The notes below the pieces were generated by a model that saw only the letters and a program-made list of their open reading frames with translations, was not told where the DNA came from and made no database searches. Of a stretch of 64,000 nucleotides of DNA, positions 1,850 through 49,810 are shown one piece after another (positions within the stretch are counted from its first letter, which is position 1; each line of letters opens with the position of its first letter). The stretch is from Fuerstiella marisgermanici (GTDB taxonomy: Bacteria; Planctomycetota; Planctomycetia; Planctomycetales; Planctomycetaceae): contig NZ_CP017641.1 in the NCBI RefSeq assembly GCF_001983935.1, positions 7,490,001 through 7,554,000 of the forward strand. Direction: 5' to 3'. A program made the position numbers and the translations under genes.

Positions 1850-3310
1850 ATGTTGCGTTCCGCGTGTCTCGCACTTTTTCTGGTCGCCCTGCCCTGCACT
1901 TTCACCAACGCTGCCGACGATCGGCCGAACATCGTGATCATCCTTTGCGATGACCTCGGCTTTGGTGATCTGGGCATCCATGGGCACCCGCACATTCAGA
2001 CACCCTTCATCGACTCGCTTGCCGATGAAGGGCTTCGTTTCACCAGCTTCTATTCGACTGCGCCGGTCTGTTCGCCTTCGCGAGTCGGTCTGTTGACGGG
2101 CCGCAGTCCGAATCGAGCTGGCGTGTACGACTGGATCCCGGAAGCTCGCACGCCAAGGCCGGATGCCCGCGAGCAGGTGCATATGAAGAAGGACGAAGTG
2201 ACGATTGCTCAGCTGTTGAAAAAGGGCGGTTATGCCACATGCATGGCGGGCAAGTGGCACTGCAACGCGGCGTTCAACAGTCCCGATCAGCCTCAGCCCG
2301 GAGACGCCGGATTCGATCACTGGATGGCAACGCAAAACAACGCGGCGCCTTCGCACCAGGACCCCGTCAACTATGTTCGCAACGGCAAGCCAGTCGGGAA
2401 GATCGAAGGCTTCAGTTGTCAAATTGCTACCGACGAAGCCACCGGCTGGATGGCACAGCACGTTAAGAATAATCCGGAGCAGCCTTTCTTCATCTACCTG
2501 CCGTTCCACGAACCGCACGAACCTGTGGCGTCACCGCCGGCACTGGTAAAGCAGTATGAAAGCGTCACTTGGCACCCGGACCAGGCCCAGTATTACGCCA
2601 ACGTCCACAACGTTGACCTCGCAGTTGGCAAAGTGGTGAAGGCGCTTGAAAACGCCGGAGTACGCGACAACACACTCATCGTGTTTACAGCAGACAACGG
2701 CCCTGAAACACTTAACCGTTACCGATCTGCCAACCGAAGCTGGGGGATCACGGCTCATTTGCGAGGCATGAAGCTGCACACGCATGACGGCGGTTTTCAC
2801 GTGGCGGGAATCTTCAATTGGCCGAAAGGTATCAAACCTGGTCAAGTCACAGATACAGTCGGATCGGCTCTCGACCTGCTACCCACGGCCTGTGATCTTG
2901 CAGGCGTTGACCTTCCCGCAGAACGAAAACTTGACGGGATCAGCCTGAAGCCACTCTTCGAATCCGGCACCATGAACACGCCCGCCCGGTCACTCGTCTG
3001 GGCGTATTACAACGGCATCAACGACGCTCGCGTGGCAATGAGACACGGACAGTGGAAAGTGCTGGCTCGGCTAAACGGTGGCAACTTCCCCAAACGACAA
3101 AACCTCACGCCGACCACACTGGCCGAAGCCAAAGCGGCAAAACTTACCGACTTCGAAATCTACAACATCGACACTGACCCCGGCGAAATTTCGAACCTAG
3201 CCGGTCGAGGCGTCGCGGAAGAGACGCAACTTATCAAGCAGATCAAAACCGGCTACGCCGAACTCGTCGACGATTCGCCAGCGTGGACGCCCGTCACGAA
3301 ATCGAAATAG
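1850..3310 (+). CDS. Secreted arylsulfatase A-like sulfatase
   Basis: A 486-residue exported sulfatase of the alkaline-phosphatase fold. After a signal peptide (to about residue 21) it has the calcium-binding Asp pair D34-D35 (ILCDDLGFGD), the formylglycine signature C-S-P-S-R with Cys74 as the residue to be oxidised, the GKWHC block at about residue 137, and the late metal-site motif FTADNGPE. Such enzymes hydrolyse sulfate esters, often on marine polysaccharides. It needs a formylglycine-generating enzyme, which is not encoded here. It lies between DUF6807 and an isochorismatase-ThuA fusion. The substrate cannot be read from the sequence. Confidence 0.92.
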   Translation: MLRSACLALFLVALPCTFTNAADDRPNIVIILCDDLGFGDLGIHGHPHIQTPFIDSLADEGLRFTSFYSTAPVCSPSRVGLLTGRSPNRAGVYDWIPEARTPRPDAREQVHMKKDEVTIAQLLKKGGYATCMAGKWHCNAAFNSPDQPQPGDAGFDHWMATQNNAAPSHQDPVNYVRNGKPVGKIEGFSCQIATDEATGWMAQHVKNNPEQPFFIYLPFHEPHEPVASPPALVKQYESVTWHPDQAQYYANVHNVDLAVGKVVKALENAGVRDNTLIVFTADNGPETLNRYRSANRSWGITAHLRGMKLHTHDGGFHVAGIFNWPKGIKPGQVTDTVGSALDLLPTACDLAGVDLPAERKLDGISLKPLFESGTMNTPARSLVWAYYNGINDARVAMRHGQWKVLARLNGGNFPKRQNLTPTTLAEAKAAKLTDFEIYNIDTDPGEISNLAGRGVAEETQLIKQIKTGYAELVDDSPAWTPVTKSK

Positions 3311-16559: not shown

Positions 16560-17816
16560 TAGGCGGATTGCGCGACATTGGATAAGATGGTATAGATGGC
16601 AACCTTCAGTGTCAGTGTGATGTTTCACGCTGCTATGTGTGCTGAAATGTTTGAGCCGCGAAAGGATTCCTGCCATGCCTTTGTCCACCAGTTTTGTCGA
16701 TCATTTCTCTGATGTTACGGATCCAAGGCGCGGTGAGCCGGTCTATCCGCTTCAAAATATTCTGTTCATTGCAGTCTGTGCTGTGATCAGTGGCGCGGAT
16801 GATTTTGTCGCGATTGCGAAGTTTGGCAGAACGAAACGAGATTGGTTTGCGAAGTATCTCGATCTGTCCGCAGGGATTCCGTCGCACGATCGTTTCAACG
16901 CCATCCTCGCTCTGATTCGTCCTGCAGAATTTGAAAAGTGCTTACTGAATTGGATCACTTCTCTGCAGAAAATCAGTGACGGACAAATCATCGCGATCGA
17001 TGGTAAGACACTCCGTCGCAGCTATGACAAAGCCAGTGGCAAGTCGGCCATCCACATGGTCAGTGCATGGGCCACAGCCAATCATATCAGTCTCGGGCAA
17101 GTCGTCGTCGATGCGAAGAGTAATGAGATTACGGCGATTCCCAAACTGCTGGAATTGATCGAGGTTTCCGGTGCTTTAGTGACGATTGACGCCATGGGTT
17201 GCCAAACGGAAATCGCGTCGAAGATTGTCGACGCAGAGGCGGACTATTGTCTTGCCGCGAAAGGCAATCAGCCCACGCTACACGCAGGTCTTGTCGCGTT
17301 CTTCGCCGACCATTTGGAAGATGACTTTGCACGCTGTCCGGTGCGACGATTTGAAACGAAAGAAAACACCGGCGGCCGCGAAGATTTGCGACAGTATCTG
17401 ATCTGTCGTGCGCCGGAGGATCTTCCGGACGCACATCGCTGGAAGAACCTGAAGGCGATCGGGATCGCGATCAACAACACTCTCCGCGACGGCAAAATGT
17501 GCATCGGCATCCGCTATTACATTTTAAGCCGTTATGTCTCCGGCCGTCGTTTCGCCGAAGCTGTGCGGAGCCATTGGGGTGTCGAGAACAATTTGCATTG
17601 GCAACTGGACGTCACTTTCCAGGAAGATCAATCGAGGATCCGTAAAGGCCACGCAGACATGAACTTCAGCATCCTTCGCCGCACGGCGTTGAGTCTTCTG
17701 AAAAACGAATCCACAGCCAAGGTGGGGATCAAAAACAAAAGACTCAATGCTGCCTGGGATGAGACATACCTCGCGAAAGTCCTGTTCGGCAAATGACTTA
17801 GCGTGCAATCCCCCTG
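16560..17816 (+). mobile_element. ISAs1-family insertion sequence, 1257 bp
   Basis: The ends are defined by the 10-bp direct repeat TATGCAGTGC (16550-16559 and 17817-17826). The terminal inverted repeats are imperfect: TAGGCGGATTGCGCG on the left and CAGGGGGATTGCACG on the right (read inward), 12 of 15 matching. It contains a single transposase gene in the plus direction. The exact duplication and the clean split of a host gene suggest a fairly recent insertion. Confidence 0.88.
16675..17796 (+). CDS. ISAs1-family DDE transposase
   Basis: A 373-residue transposase. It opens with the family N-terminal block (FVDHFSDVTDPRRGEPVYPLQNILFIAVCAVISGADDF) and has the catalytic triad: Asp in AIDGKTLRRSYDKA, Asp in VTIDAMGCQTEIA, and Glu in HWGVENNLHWQLDVTFQED. 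The length is normal and the frame intact, so the enzyme is probably functional. I chose the ATG at 16675 because AAAGGAT lies seven bases upstream; an in-frame ATG at 16639 adds 12 residues outside the family start. The gene fills nearly the whole element. Confidence 0.92.
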   Translation: MPLSTSFVDHFSDVTDPRRGEPVYPLQNILFIAVCAVISGADDFVAIAKFGRTKRDWFAKYLDLSAGIPSHDRFNAILALIRPAEFEKCLLNWITSLQKISDGQIIAIDGKTLRRSYDKASGKSAIHMVSAWATANHISLGQVVVDAKSNEITAIPKLLELIEVSGALVTIDAMGCQTEIASKIVDAEADYCLAAKGNQPTLHAGLVAFFADHLEDDFARCPVRRFETKENTGGREDLRQYLICRAPEDLPDAHRWKNLKAIGIAINNTLRDGKMCIGIRYYILSRYVSGRRFAEAVRSHWGVENNLHWQLDVTFQEDQSRIRKGHADMNFSILRRTALSLLKNESTAKVGIKNKRLNAAWDETYLAKVLFGK

Positions 17817-22611: not shown

Positions 22612-24171
22612 ATGGAAACCATCGACCTTAAAGACCACGAATGGAAAACTGTTCTGCGACCGCTGTCCATCGACGACTTCGATGAACTGATCGCAATGCA
22701 GCTTGCCTGTTTTCCCGGCATGCACCCGTGGGAACGCGACCAGATTGAAAGTCAGTTGCAGCACTTTCCGGACGGTCAAATGGTCATCGAAATCGAAGGC
22801 AAGCTGGCGGCATCCAGTTGCAGTCTGATTTTGAACTACGACGTCAACATGGAGTGGCACGACTGGAAAAAGGTGGCGGACGAAGGCTACATCCGCAACC
22901 ACAATCCCAAAGGCGACACTCTGTATGGCATCGAAATTATGGTGCATCCGGAATTTCGAGGGATGAAGCTGGCGCGGCGATTATATGACGCTCGCAAAGA
23001 ACTGTGCCGCGAAAAGAATCTGGCGAGAATCATCGTGGCCGGGCGACTGCCGGGTTACGGCAAACACGCCGATGATATGACGGCTCGCGAATACGTCGAA
23101 GGTGTTGTTGACAAAACACTGTACGACCCGGTTCTGACGGCTCAGATTTCCAATGGCTTCGCGCTGCAGGGACTGATCCCAAATTACTTTCCGTCTGATT
23201 CGGCCAGTCGCGGTTACGCATCGTTTTTGGAATGGCGGAATCTTGACTACGTCAAGGGGGCCAAGCGGCGTTTTCTGAGTGCCACGGAACTGGTTCGTAT
23301 CGCGGCCGTTCAGTATCAGATGCGAACAATCAAAGACTTCAGCGACTTCGCTCAGCAGTGCGAATTCTTCATCGACACGGCCAGCGAATACAAGAGCGAC
23401 TTCGTCCTGTTTCCCGAACTGCACACGACTCAGCTGCTGTCCTGCATTCCCGAACTGCGTCCTGGCGAGGCGGCTCGTAAGCTGGCGGAATTCACGCCGC
23501 AGTATCTGGACTTCTACACCGAAATGGCGGTGAAGTATCACGTGAACATCATTGGCGGTTCACAGTTCGTGATGGAAGACGAGGCGTTGTACAACGTGTC
23601 GTACCTGTTTCGCCGCGACGGAACTCTTGAGAAGCAGGAAAAGATTCACATCACTCCCAGCGAACGCAAGTGGTGGGGCGTGACTCCGGGGCGCAAGGTC
23701 AACGTGTTTGAAACAGACTGCGGCACCGTTGCGATTCTGATTTGCTACGACATCGAATTTCCGGAACTGGTCCGCATCGCGGCGGCCAAGGGAGCTCAGA
23801 TTGTCTTTGTGCCGTTCAACACCGACACGCGGCACGGCTATTTGCGAGTCCGAAACTGCGCGATGGCTCGCTGCGTGGAAAATCACGTCTACGTCGCCGT
23901 GGCCGGCTGTACGGGCAACCTTCCATTCGTGGAAAACAGCGATATTCACTACGCTCAATCAGCCATTTTTACGCCTGCTGATGCTGAGTTCGCTCGCGAC
24001 GCCATCGCGGCCGAAAGCAATGCCAACATCGAAACGCTGATTATTCACGACGTCGATGTGGAGCAGTTGCGACGGCACAAAGAAACGGGCAGCGTGCAGA
24101 ACTGGAACGACCGGCGCAAGGATCTGTACAAGGTGGTCTATCAGGAAGACGGCCACGAATTTTCGGTTTAG
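22612..24171 (+). CDS. GNAT acetyltransferase fused to a carbon-nitrogen hydrolase (nitrilase)
   Basis: A 519-residue bifunctional protein. Residues about 14-215 are GNAT-like, with the acetyl-CoA segment [19 protein letters not shown]. Residues about 228-510 are a nitrilase-superfamily hydrolase with the triad Glu269 (FPELHTT), Lys344 (KIHITPSE) and Cys378 ([10 protein letters not shown]). The hydrolase would cleave an amide; the GNAT half may acetylate or act as an amidoligase-like partner. This fusion fits known RLAN/RimK gene neighbourhoods. Its TAG stop at 24169-24171 coincides with the first bases of a dispersed repeat, so the original C-terminus may have differed slightly. Confidence 0.88.
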
Positions 24172-24273
24172 AGCAGTTTCCCATTTGTCGTGGACGGTCC
24201 GGGCTCGTGGAAATCAGCCTTCATCGTGCGAAACGCTTGTTCCGCGGCTACCGGTCAGCGAGGTTCGCTGTAG
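24171..24273 (+). repeat. Dispersed repeat A, long copy 1
   Basis: About 103 bases starting GAGCAGTTTCCC and running through a core shared with 10814 and 26798 (GTCGTGGACGGTCCGGGCTC), then CGAAACGCTTGTTCCGCGGC. It ends in a hairpin CAGCGA-GGT-TCGCTG. The start overlaps the stop codon of the GNAT-nitrilase gene. Confidence 0.8.
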
Positions 24274-24482
24274 CACGAGGTTGTATGTCGAAATGTGAGC
24301 GGGCTGTGGCGGCTTTCGGTAGCTGATTCTCTGCGTTTTCGTTGCCGCAGCACGTTTTCAGGTGGCTGCGCCGAATTCTCGGCCGACGATCGTCACGCGC
24401 TATTGCGGGCACAGTCTTGCGATATCCGCCATCGTCGAATCTGTTACAGTCCGGTGCGAGTTGCCCACCTGACTGCTCTCTT

Positions 24483-24740
24483 AGAACCCCTAACAAGACC
24501 TGTGTGGCCGCGTTGTGACGACAGTTGTCGAGATGCAAGGAAAAGTGACGAGGCGACAGATGTCGTCGAGGAGCGCTGACGCCGCAGATCGGCTGCTGTC
24601 GTCGCAACCCTCCGGGCCGCTTGTGTTTCCGCCTCAGGCGGCGTCGTTCGTCGTCGACGACATTTGTCGCCTCCTCCTCACTTCTTGCCTGAAACGAAAC
24701 CACAAACGTCGCGGCTCACACAGGTTTTGTTAGGGGTTCT
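24483..24740. repeat. 258-bp foldback (MITE-like) element, copy 1
   Basis: The ends AGAACCCCTAACAAGACCTG and the reverse complement AGAACCCCTAACAAAACCTG form near-perfect terminal inverted repeats, flanked by TT(A) and TAA. Inner segments are also complementary, for example GAGGCGACAGATGTCG against TGTCGCCTCC, so the whole unit can fold back on itself. A second copy of exactly the same length lies at 49389-49646. It encodes no transposase. It ends nine bases before the start codon of the MFS gene. Confidence 0.85.
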
Positions 24741-24749
24741 TAATCATTC

Positions 24750-26171
24750 ATGCCTTCCAACCCGCCAGACGATCCATTGGATTCCACCTTGAAGGCTGAG
24801 CCTGCGCCGCCTGCTGAAACGCTTGTCATCCCTCACGCCGCGCCAATTATTGTGGCGGGATGTCTGGGCATGGTTTACACGCAACTGGTGTTGTGCCCGG
24901 CCGGAATCGAACTGATTCGGCAATACGGAGGCACTGGTTATCACGTTGGGATCTTCGGTGCGATTCCGACGTTGATGCTGTTTTTGCAATTCTTCTCCGC
25001 CGTCGTGGCCAATCACCTGACCTATCGGCGCGGGCTTTGGATGACGGTTTCGTTCGTCCAGCGAATCACGCTGCTGCCCATTGCACTTGGCCCATTCTTG
25101 TTTCCGGACGTCAGCGGCCGTGTTTGGCTGTGGTTGTATCTGGGCCTGGCTGTGGCGAATCATGGGCTCATTCACTTTGCGTCGCCCTTGTGGATGTCGT
25201 GGATGGGTGACTATCTGCCGCGCCGCGGACTCAGTCAGTTTTGGGGAACGCGCCATGTGTGGATGCAGTGGGCAGGGGCGGCGGGTTTGTTGTTTGCGTC
25301 GGTTTTGCTGAAGGCTTATGCCGACGATATTGTGACCGCTTTTGCAGTCTTGATGACCATTGCCGCTGTTCTCGGTGTGATTGATATCACCATGTTCTGG
25401 TGGGTTTCCGAACCTCCAGTAACAAAGATTCCAGCAACCAGCATCGCTCGCGTACTGGCCGAACCGTTCCGCAATCGTGGCTTTCGATCGTTCATACGCT
25501 TTATGTGCTTCTGGCATTTTGCGGCGATGGTGGGAGCTCCGTTTATCAGCCTGTTTCTGTTGTCCGAGGTCGGCATGAGTCTGTCGCAGCTTATGCTGCT
25601 GTGGGTGTTTTGCTGGGTGGGCGGAGCGACCTGTGCAGGTCGGTTTGGCAGACTGGCCGCACGATTCGGACACAAGCCGATTCTGGTGATGTGTACGGCG
25701 CTGAAGTCGACGAACATGATCGCCTTGATTCTGATTCCGCTCGAACCGTCGGTGGCCTTTGCGGTTCTGGTCCCCGTCTTCTTTATTGACTCAATCCTGA
25801 ATGCGGGCTTTGCAGTCGCCACCAATGGATTTCTGTTAACTCAGTCACCGTCCGGCAACCGCACGATGTTTATCGCGTCGGGCACAGCGGTCGCGGGACT
25901 GGTGGGCGGCGTCACGTCGATCGCGTGTGGAGCTCTGCTGGCCGCTGTCCCCAACGGTGCGGTCCTGGCTGGCCAGCCGTTTGGCGGGTTTCAGACATTG
26001 TTCCTGGTCAGCGCGCTGCTGCGATTCGCCTCTGTTCTGCTGGTGATTCGTATTCGAGAACCGGAAGCTCACGGTACCCGGTTTGTCGTCTCGCAGCTTA
26101 TCGGAGCGTCACCGTTAAGAATGGTGCGGTTTCCGGTGGGGCTATTTCGAAGTATCGACCCAGACGAATAG
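24750..26171 (+). CDS. MFS transporter
   Basis: A 473-residue integral membrane protein with about 12 hydrophobic segments, beginning after a Pro-rich cytosolic tail (APIIVAGCLGMVYTQLVLCPAG). The segment GRFGRLAARFGHKPILVM looks like the MFS loop 2-3/8-9 signature. It is a secondary transporter of unknown substrate. It could export the product of the upstream ligase cluster, but a 580-base repeat region separates them, so this is only a suggestion. The ATG at 24750 is preceded by the end of a foldback element, whose AGGGG at 24732-24736 is the nearest purine-rich stretch. Confidence 0.8.
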   Translation: MPSNPPDDPLDSTLKAEPAPPAETLVIPHAAPIIVAGCLGMVYTQLVLCPAGIELIRQYGGTGYHVGIFGAIPTLMLFLQFFSAVVANHLTYRRGLWMTVSFVQRITLLPIALGPFLFPDVSGRVWLWLYLGLAVANHGLIHFASPLWMSWMGDYLPRRGLSQFWGTRHVWMQWAGAAGLLFASVLLKAYADDIVTAFAVLMTIAAVLGVIDITMFWWVSEPPVTKIPATSIARVLAEPFRNRGFRSFIRFMCFWHFAAMVGAPFISLFLLSEVGMSLSQLMLLWVFCWVGGATCAGRFGRLAARFGHKPILVMCTALKSTNMIALILIPLEPSVAFAVLVPVFFIDSILNAGFAVATNGFLLTQSPSGNRTMFIASGTAVAGLVGGVTSIACGALLAAVPNGAVLAGQPFGGFQTLFLVSALLRFASVLLVIRIREPEAHGTRFVVSQLIGASPLRMVRFPVGLFRSIDPDE

Positions 26172-49307: not shown

Positions 49308-49388
49308 CGACACTTCCTCGGTTTCCGGTTTCATCAAAACTGTTGACGGCCCTCAATTGTAGAGAGGCACCCACGCATTCCGCAACTT

Positions 49389-49646
49389 AGAACCTATCCG
49401 AGAACTTGGGAGGGCACGTTGTGACGCCAGTGGTCGAGATGCAAGGAAGAGTGACGAGTCGACAAATGTCGTCGAGGAATGATGACGCCGCAGATCGGCT
49501 GCTGTCGTCGCAACCCTTCGGGACGCTTGTGGTTAAGCATCCGGCTGCGTCATTCGTCGTCGACGACATTTGTCGTCTCCTCTTCTTTCCTTGTATGAAA
49601 CGTAACTGCAAACGTCGTGGCTCTCCCAGGTTGTCGGATGGGTTCT
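49389..49646. repeat. 258-bp foldback (MITE-like) element, copy 2
   Basis: Same length and inner sequence as the copy at 24483 (shared GCCGCAGATCGGCTGCTGTC and TTCGTCGTCGACGACATTTG). The ends differ: AGAACCTATCCGAGAACTTG on the left and the reverse complement AGAACCCATCCGACAACCTG on the right, still complementary to each other. It lies between the divergent floA and RidA genes, so it occupies much of their shared promoter region. Confidence 0.85.
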
Positions 49647-49810
49647 AATCCACCGTCCCGAGTTGAGTTCCGTTGAACGCACCGCTCAACCCGATATCAT
49701 CGGCCTTCCGACGTGACGGTTCCTGACCACAACGTCGCCCGTTTTACGCCGGATCAGCAGAATTGCCGAATTCCGGCGTCCCACCTTCAATTCGTCCTGG
49801 AAACGAAAAT

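Follow-up and report, generated by a model that had tools for sequence, protein, structure and literature searches.

A fold-back repeat of Fuerstiella marisgermanici is very probably an IS5-type MITE with two sets of ends and one interior

The initial annotation of a 64,000-nucleotide stretch of the Fuerstiella marisgermanici genome (the window; NZ_CP017641.1, positions 7,490,001 to 7,554,000) described two 258-bp fold-back units with a common interior and with terminal arms that differed between the copies yet stayed complementary within each, and proposed either a MITE moved by an unknown transposase or a structured RNA. What is this element, and how can its arms differ between copies and still pair within them? 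The units were found at 24483-24740 (copy 1) and 49389-49646 (copy 2), as described, and they did share their interior, with 81.8% identity across the element. The terminal arms did differ between the copies, while the complementarity within each was large but imperfect: the 16-base arm quoted in that annotation had a single wobble in copy 1, and in copy 2 three of its positions were imperfect. Predicted folds were very stable, at -143.8 kcal/mol for copy 1 (z -10.2) and -140.6 kcal/mol for copy 2 (z -10.9), and in neither case was any of 200 dinucleotide shuffles as good.

The first and last bases of each 258-bp unit turned out to be part of 3-bp flanks, leaving a mobile core of 256 bp that begins GAACC and ends GGTTC. 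The core of copy 1, placed by sequence, family search and alignment, occupies 24484-24739 on the plus strand, has the A-type end GAACCCCTAACAARACC, and lies between the left and right TTA of a target-site duplication (24481-24483 and 24740-24742, letters checked). That of copy 2, placed by sequence and alignment, occupies 49390-49645 on the plus strand and has the B-type ends GAACCTATCCGAGAACT and GAACCCATCCGACAACC; its left flank is TTA (49387-49389) and its right flank, unlike the left, is TAA (49646-49648, letters of both checked). The copies have 59% and 55% G+C in a window of 56%. Copy 1 is located between an ORF of 519 aa and one of 473 aa that starts at 24750, and copy 2 between two divergently oriented ORFs (344 and 169 aa). 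Upstream of copy 1, at 24170-24278, there is a repeat of about 100 bp from another small family, which recurs at 83-85% identity beside the MITE copies L012 and L016.

The description of copy 1 as one of two held for the window but not for the genome. A search of the single 8,920,478-bp contig of this genome (G000) with copy 1 identified 24 near-complete copies (L001-L024, including L016 of 251 bp and L023 of 222 bp) plus fragments, on both strands. Over the part that matched, 20 of the 24, copy 1 counted, had 96-100% identity to copy 1. Four of the 24 were inside predicted ORFs, as against 79% of points placed at random in these loci (ORFs for this count were picked by length only), and the other 20 lay between ORFs. 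Among 397 genomes searched with copy 1, at least 22 had any match and at least seven had a match across all 258 bases, namely the window's own genome and, at 84-87%, G005, G012, G053, G116, G150, and G161; these counts are lower bounds, the best places per genome being the ones scored. The ends, searched as an 18-base pattern with up to three mismatches, were abundant in relatives: 144 in G116, 82 in G012, and 70 in G053. A contig scan with the exact end pattern, from which the window's own genome may be excluded, gave 90 stretches, mostly in records titled Fuerstiella sp., Planctomyces sp., and Planctomycetaceae bacterium. Matches also occurred in records titled Kuenenia (a title taken as wrong, this probably being genome G150, from the window's family), Anaerolineales, and Chelatococcus. 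No title in a literature search named this element, subscription journals being outside its scope.

Analysis of the flanks was carried out on copies with both ends intact. Extension of the BLAST matches gave 86 places, and 42 of these were kept; the 44 dropped had a truncated or diverged end or an odd length, and included L002, L016, L021, and L023 of the window genome. The intact copies came from eight genomes: 20 from the window genome, eight from G116, five each from G053 and G150, and one each from G003, G005, G012, and G161. Identical 3-bp flanks were found in 23 of the 42, and TTA or TAA (TWA) stood at 68 of the 84 ends. Where both flanks were TWA (28 copies), they agreed in 22 and disagreed in six (p 0.004), which is not what ends carried by the element itself would give. 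A 4-bp duplication with the same core ends fitted only one of the 42. Nineteen copies, copy 2 among them, were without an identical 3-bp duplication.

The insertion was also visible at an unoccupied site. The copies at 3061922 and 2579939 (L006 and L007) were counted as one insertion event because of their common surroundings, which were found at three more places in the window genome without the element. With a single TTA kept, the flanks on either side of the copy at 3061922 were joined, and the resulting sequence aligned to the place at 3499774 through the junction; the sequence is CACC-TTA-GAGTG at the empty site and CACC-TTA-element-TTA-GAGTG at the filled one. The single TTA at 3499774 shows a clean insertion. 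At the other two of the three paralogous empty sites, ACA stood at the expected TTA spot.

Other repeats were seen beside two of the copies. A second, palindromic family, with many copies at 79-91% in the window genome, starts at or near the boundary of MITE L005, on its right (G000:C1:6022809 onward), and the edge of one may have been the insertion site of the other. To the right of MITE L003 (at about 636-687 of the query) lies a repeat of about 50 bases, with many occurrences in G000, G001, G004, and G007 and a single one in G005, that is perhaps a REP-like family of the genus.

A scan of the collected loci for end pairs led to L301, a decayed 876-bp IS5 element from the same genus with flanks TAA and TCA. 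A search with a fragment of L301 matched 186 of the 397 genomes, the window's own not among these. The two closest intact IS5 elements, L304 and L305, are both 901 bp long and encode an intact 268-aa transposase that matches NCBIfam NF033580 (transpos_IS5_3; E 2.7e-72 and 1.5e-70) and Pfam DUF4096 and DDE_Tnp_1. Their ends are GAACGCCTAACAAAACC, with a different last base in one of the four (the right end of L305), and their flanks are TAA on both sides. Compared with this 901-bp class, the ends of copy 1 differ at two of 17 bases on the left and one of 17 on the right, and MITE copy L022 has GAACGCCTAACAAAAC at both ends. In a scan of 30 IS5 loci, ten besides L304 had a top-scored end pair with equal TWA flanks, under a score that rewarded equal flanks and with ends that do not look alike in all ten pairs. 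Two DUF4096 matches (L300 and L302) were rejected as partners; they had no such end pair.

The B-type ends had a different relative. The end pattern of copy 2 was found in seven of the 397 genomes, including the window's own, and a 925-bp IS5 element in G071 (L372), which belongs to another genus of the family, has GAACCTATCCGAAAACC at both ends and TTA on both sides. Its transposase is intact (275 aa; NF033580, E 1.2e-68), and copy 2 differs from this class at two of 17 bases at each end. The IS1031-type subgroup of IS5 makes a TNA duplication; TWA is compatible with that pattern, and the partner elements may belong to this subgroup. The likeness of the MITE to the A-class IS elements stops at about base 17-18, and to judge by sequence comparison its interior is not derived from theirs by deletion.

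On the evidence of these end matches, the difference in arms between the copies is best read as reflecting two end classes, one for each of two IS5 transposases. Copies 1 and 2 have the same interior and different end classes, each near a different IS5 element from relatives, which explains why arms that do not match between the copies are still complementary within each. The initial annotation had taken the compensatory change in the arms as the signature of a conserved fold, and two end classes explain it better. The family links a planctomycete repeat to two IS5 transposases, with two end sets and one interior.

The 258-bp unit is, with little remaining doubt, a non-autonomous MITE of about 256 bp whose ends are bound by an IS5-family DDE transposase and which inserts at TWA; the family is new, and of a kind already known, the IS5-type MITE. 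The earlier proposal of a MITE is borne out by the copy number, the terminal inverted repeats, the 3-bp TWA duplications, the dispersed near-identical copies, the empty site, and the autonomous elements in relatives (L304, L305, and L372) with ends within one to two of 17 bases. The transposase would bind the terminal inverted repeats of about 17 bp and insert the MITE at TWA, duplicating 3 bp; the ends match, the target is duplicated, and an empty site exists, and an IS5 transposase would be what mobilises the element in trans. As to the transposase that was called unknown, the match of ends and duplication narrows it to the IS5 family, although none was found in the window genome.

Searches of the window genome with an IS5 protein query and with PF13340 gave no matches, nor did PF13612 and PF13586. 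PF01609 gave 65 matches, and 30 were fetched as loci. The 391-aa and 405-aa PF01609 families were rejected as movers; their ends are of the CAGGGGGATTGCAC and CAGGGCCAGCGC types, unrelated in seven pairwise comparisons. Ends were read for these two of the PF01609 families, the others being of 486-623 aa. With no matching IS5 transposase found in the window genome by these searches, its copies would be relics or dependent on a lost enzyme, and their present mobility there, given zero IS5 transposase matches, should be regarded as unproven. The 391-aa IS family, with more than ten copies in the genome, is represented in the window by a DDE_Tnp_1 transposase at 16978-17691; the 405-aa family is more abundant. 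At another locus (L062, G000:C1:7145000-7151500) a truncated MITE end lies beside an ORF at 2902-3288 on the minus strand, which presumably resembles the C-terminal part of an IS91-type transposase.

Shorter elements with such ends were also present. There were 34 of these, from 46 to 222 bp, and 21 had identical TWA flanks. Lengths of 139 bp (seven elements) and 122 bp (four) recurred, and a few elements (of 99, 101, and 164 bp) have other interiors. The native interior would not seem to be required for insertion, while in single cases deletion after insertion is possible. Two 164-bp elements in records titled uncultured Chelatococcus sp. (L239 and L247) have similar ends, TWA duplications, and a different hairpin interior; they form a sister MITE family with the same kind of ends. 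A pair of ends 1671 bp apart in L246, considered as one element, belonged to two separate MITEs.

Isolated ends in relatives were considered as ends of long autonomous elements and on measuring were mostly broken copies. Forty such regions among the matches listed were fetched, 20 from G053 and 20 from G116; 19 of those from G053 were measured, and those from G116 were judged by eye. One of the 19 (L172) was a two-ended element of 46 bp. Among the remaining 18 in G053 (loci L170-L189), 15 isolated ends break off after 23-189 matching bases, with either end retained, and three reach the end of the contig. The loss of one arm seems to be common among inserted palindromes, and L189, judged by eye, could be a short element whose second end is worn.

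The interior raised the question of the fold separately from that of the ends. Of 11 copies folded singly, eight were three-armed, with an outer stem and two hairpins (L022 of the window genome and L114, L115, L116, L117, L118, L119, and L137 of six others), and copy 1, copy 2, and L121 each formed one long hairpin. In copy 1 the outer stem is predicted to pair a 5' arm at 24483-24512 with a 3' arm at 24710-24740, and the three-armed consensus of the family would place the left internal hairpin at 24513-24607 and the right one at 24618-24708, all on the plus strand; in copy 1's own minimum-energy fold, part of the left hairpin pairs with the right arm instead.

Alignment of the 42 intact copies showed that 97.6% of the cells were paired in the three-armed consensus and that 29 of its 84 pairs had changed on both sides (147 cells), which none of 500 shuffles reached and which compares with 8-11 pairs (9-25 cells) for slid versions; the folds came from rows of this same alignment, a choice that works in their favour, and rows that are related do not count as independent. 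A three-armed structure derived from L137 had 93.3% of cells paired and 41 of 97 pairs changed on both sides. Restricted to 12 representatives and the inner 57 pairs, the count was 17 pairs changed on both sides versus 0-4 when slid. The long hairpin of copy 1 also scored well (92.9% paired; 21 of 81 pairs changed on both sides, in 72 cells; no match in 500 shuffles) and was rejected as the conserved fold, because 16 of the 21 two-sided changes were in the outer stem common to both folds. In its inter-arm helix (63-104/157-197) three of 37 pairs had changed on both sides and 13 departed by unpaired cells only. Covariation in the outer stem is expected from the matching of the two ends alone. 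Modeled in this way, the three-armed fold appears better supported than one long fold-back. The initial annotation had named a lack of covariation among genome-wide copies as grounds for refuting it, and this did not apply, for covariation was found. A conserved fold does exist, but it is three-armed, and the genuine paired changes are in the internal hairpins, to which that annotation had not pointed.

Within four genomes, which contribute 36 of the 42 rows, comparison with the genome consensus gave 98 one-sided changes, 54 of them pair-breaking, and eight two-sided changes. Between the consensus of the window genome and those of G116, G053, and G150 there were 13 one-sided and 19 two-sided changes, and 18 of the 19 were paired in both (Fisher p 3e-9 for the contrast, with no correction for shared ancestry). 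Under the L137 structure, one- to two-sided counts were 134 to 11 within genomes and 25 to 26 between them. Weaker contrasts were obtained for G053 versus G150 (4 to 1), G000 versus L024 (12 to 7), and G000 versus L022 (6 to 4). On the simplest view, the spreading lineage maintains the fold and settled copies lose it. The interior fold would be kept by paired changes between spreading lineages, and inserted copies would decay mostly uncompensated. Most likely the fold matters for propagation or results from arm-to-arm palindrome correction, rather than serving a host RNA; selection for propagation and correction both fit the data.

Correction of the palindrome by template switching from arm to arm during replication would yield paired changes with no selection at all. 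This explanation concerns only the interior, is compatible with the MITE reading, and is a serious though somewhat doubtful possibility. The element is a nested quasi-palindrome, its wobble states (below) have no consistent strand preference, and many copies are deletion derivatives or truncations, as palindromes would give; against this, eight two-sided versus 98 one-sided changes within genomes imply that correction is slow or tied to transposition. A more specific proposal, offered tentatively and judged unlikely as it stands, is that the three-armed fold is needed for multiplication, for example because the IS5 transposase, or replication, makes use of a cruciform or a single-stranded hairpin. 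Selection would then fall on the lineage as it spreads and not on each copy once inserted, and a single folded core could have exchanged the ends of one IS5 transposase for those of another.

The structured RNA of the initial annotation, dispersed and with its fold kept for a function in the host, fared poorly and is now quite improbable. Covariation in the internal hairpins across genera, the very stable fold, and the location of 20 of 24 copies between ORFs are what such an RNA might display. The plus strand also had the lower consensus energy (-108.2 versus -92.3 kcal/mol; single copies average 5 lower, sd 7). If one strand acted as RNA, G-U pairs would outnumber A-C pairs, and wobble states were therefore compared. 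The plus-strand consensus fold, chosen with G-U allowed, gave G-T in 228 cells and A-C in 21, whereas a fold with G-U disallowed gave G-T at 14 pair positions (24 cells) and A-C at 12 (14 cells). Along fixed diagonals, common G-T pairs number five in the base of the left hairpin, where common A-C pairs are lacking, and the upper left hairpin has three of each; in the right stem (columns 135-158) the balance is reversed, with four common A-C pairs and none of G-T, which appears beyond it. The left and right hairpins lean opposite ways, so there is no consistent one-strand G·U signature. Rfam had no match at gathering score across the whole window, the changes within genomes were mostly uncompensated, and the copies have target duplications and lie on both strands.

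Paired changes are usually taken as proof of an RNA. Here they occur in a mobile DNA palindrome, compensated between lineages and mostly uncompensated within genomes, and they counsel caution in calling such repeats RNAs from covariation alone.

REP- or REPIN-type palindromes moved by a RAYT (IS200-like) transposase are likewise palindromic, multi-copy, and mostly between ORFs, but IS200-type movement leaves no target duplication, and the 3-bp duplication with its empty site, the long ends near-identical to those of IS5, and the size of 258 bp make this origin extremely unlikely. The chance that the unit is a short protein-coding element is negligible: a frame of 66 aa is open from base 51 of copy 1, and in many copies to the terminal TAG, but variable columns fall evenly on the codon positions (37, 43, and 41), ATG is absent from six rows (all five from G053 among these), and others have frameshifts.

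Compared with known systems, the element is closest to the IS5-family elements that match NF033580: it shares the ends, within one to two of 17 bases, and the TWA duplication of the 901-bp and 925-bp elements, while having no transposase and nothing visible in common with them past base 17-18. ERIC, presumably the same as the enterobacterial RU-1, makes a TA duplication, versus TWA here. In the part of the source cited here, RU-1 (127 bp), RU-2, and RU-3 are small mobile intergenic sequences, as the present element is, and are likened to MITEs; they differ in size and host (PMC2759123). REPs and REPINs share its palindromic form, extragenic location, and high copy number; the portion of the literature cited for them gives REPs as 20-40 bp long and linked to tyrosine transposases (PMC3733652), whereas the present element has IS5-type ends and a target duplication. 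The MITEs of bacterial IS elements, as treated in the relevant part of a review (PMC10969869), are like it short and non-coding, with terminal inverted repeats, target duplications, many intergenic copies, and stable stem-loops. MITEs are described there as typically A+T-rich, and the present copies, at the G+C contents given above, differ from those reviewed in that part in composition, in combining one interior with two end classes, and in a three-armed fold found across genera.
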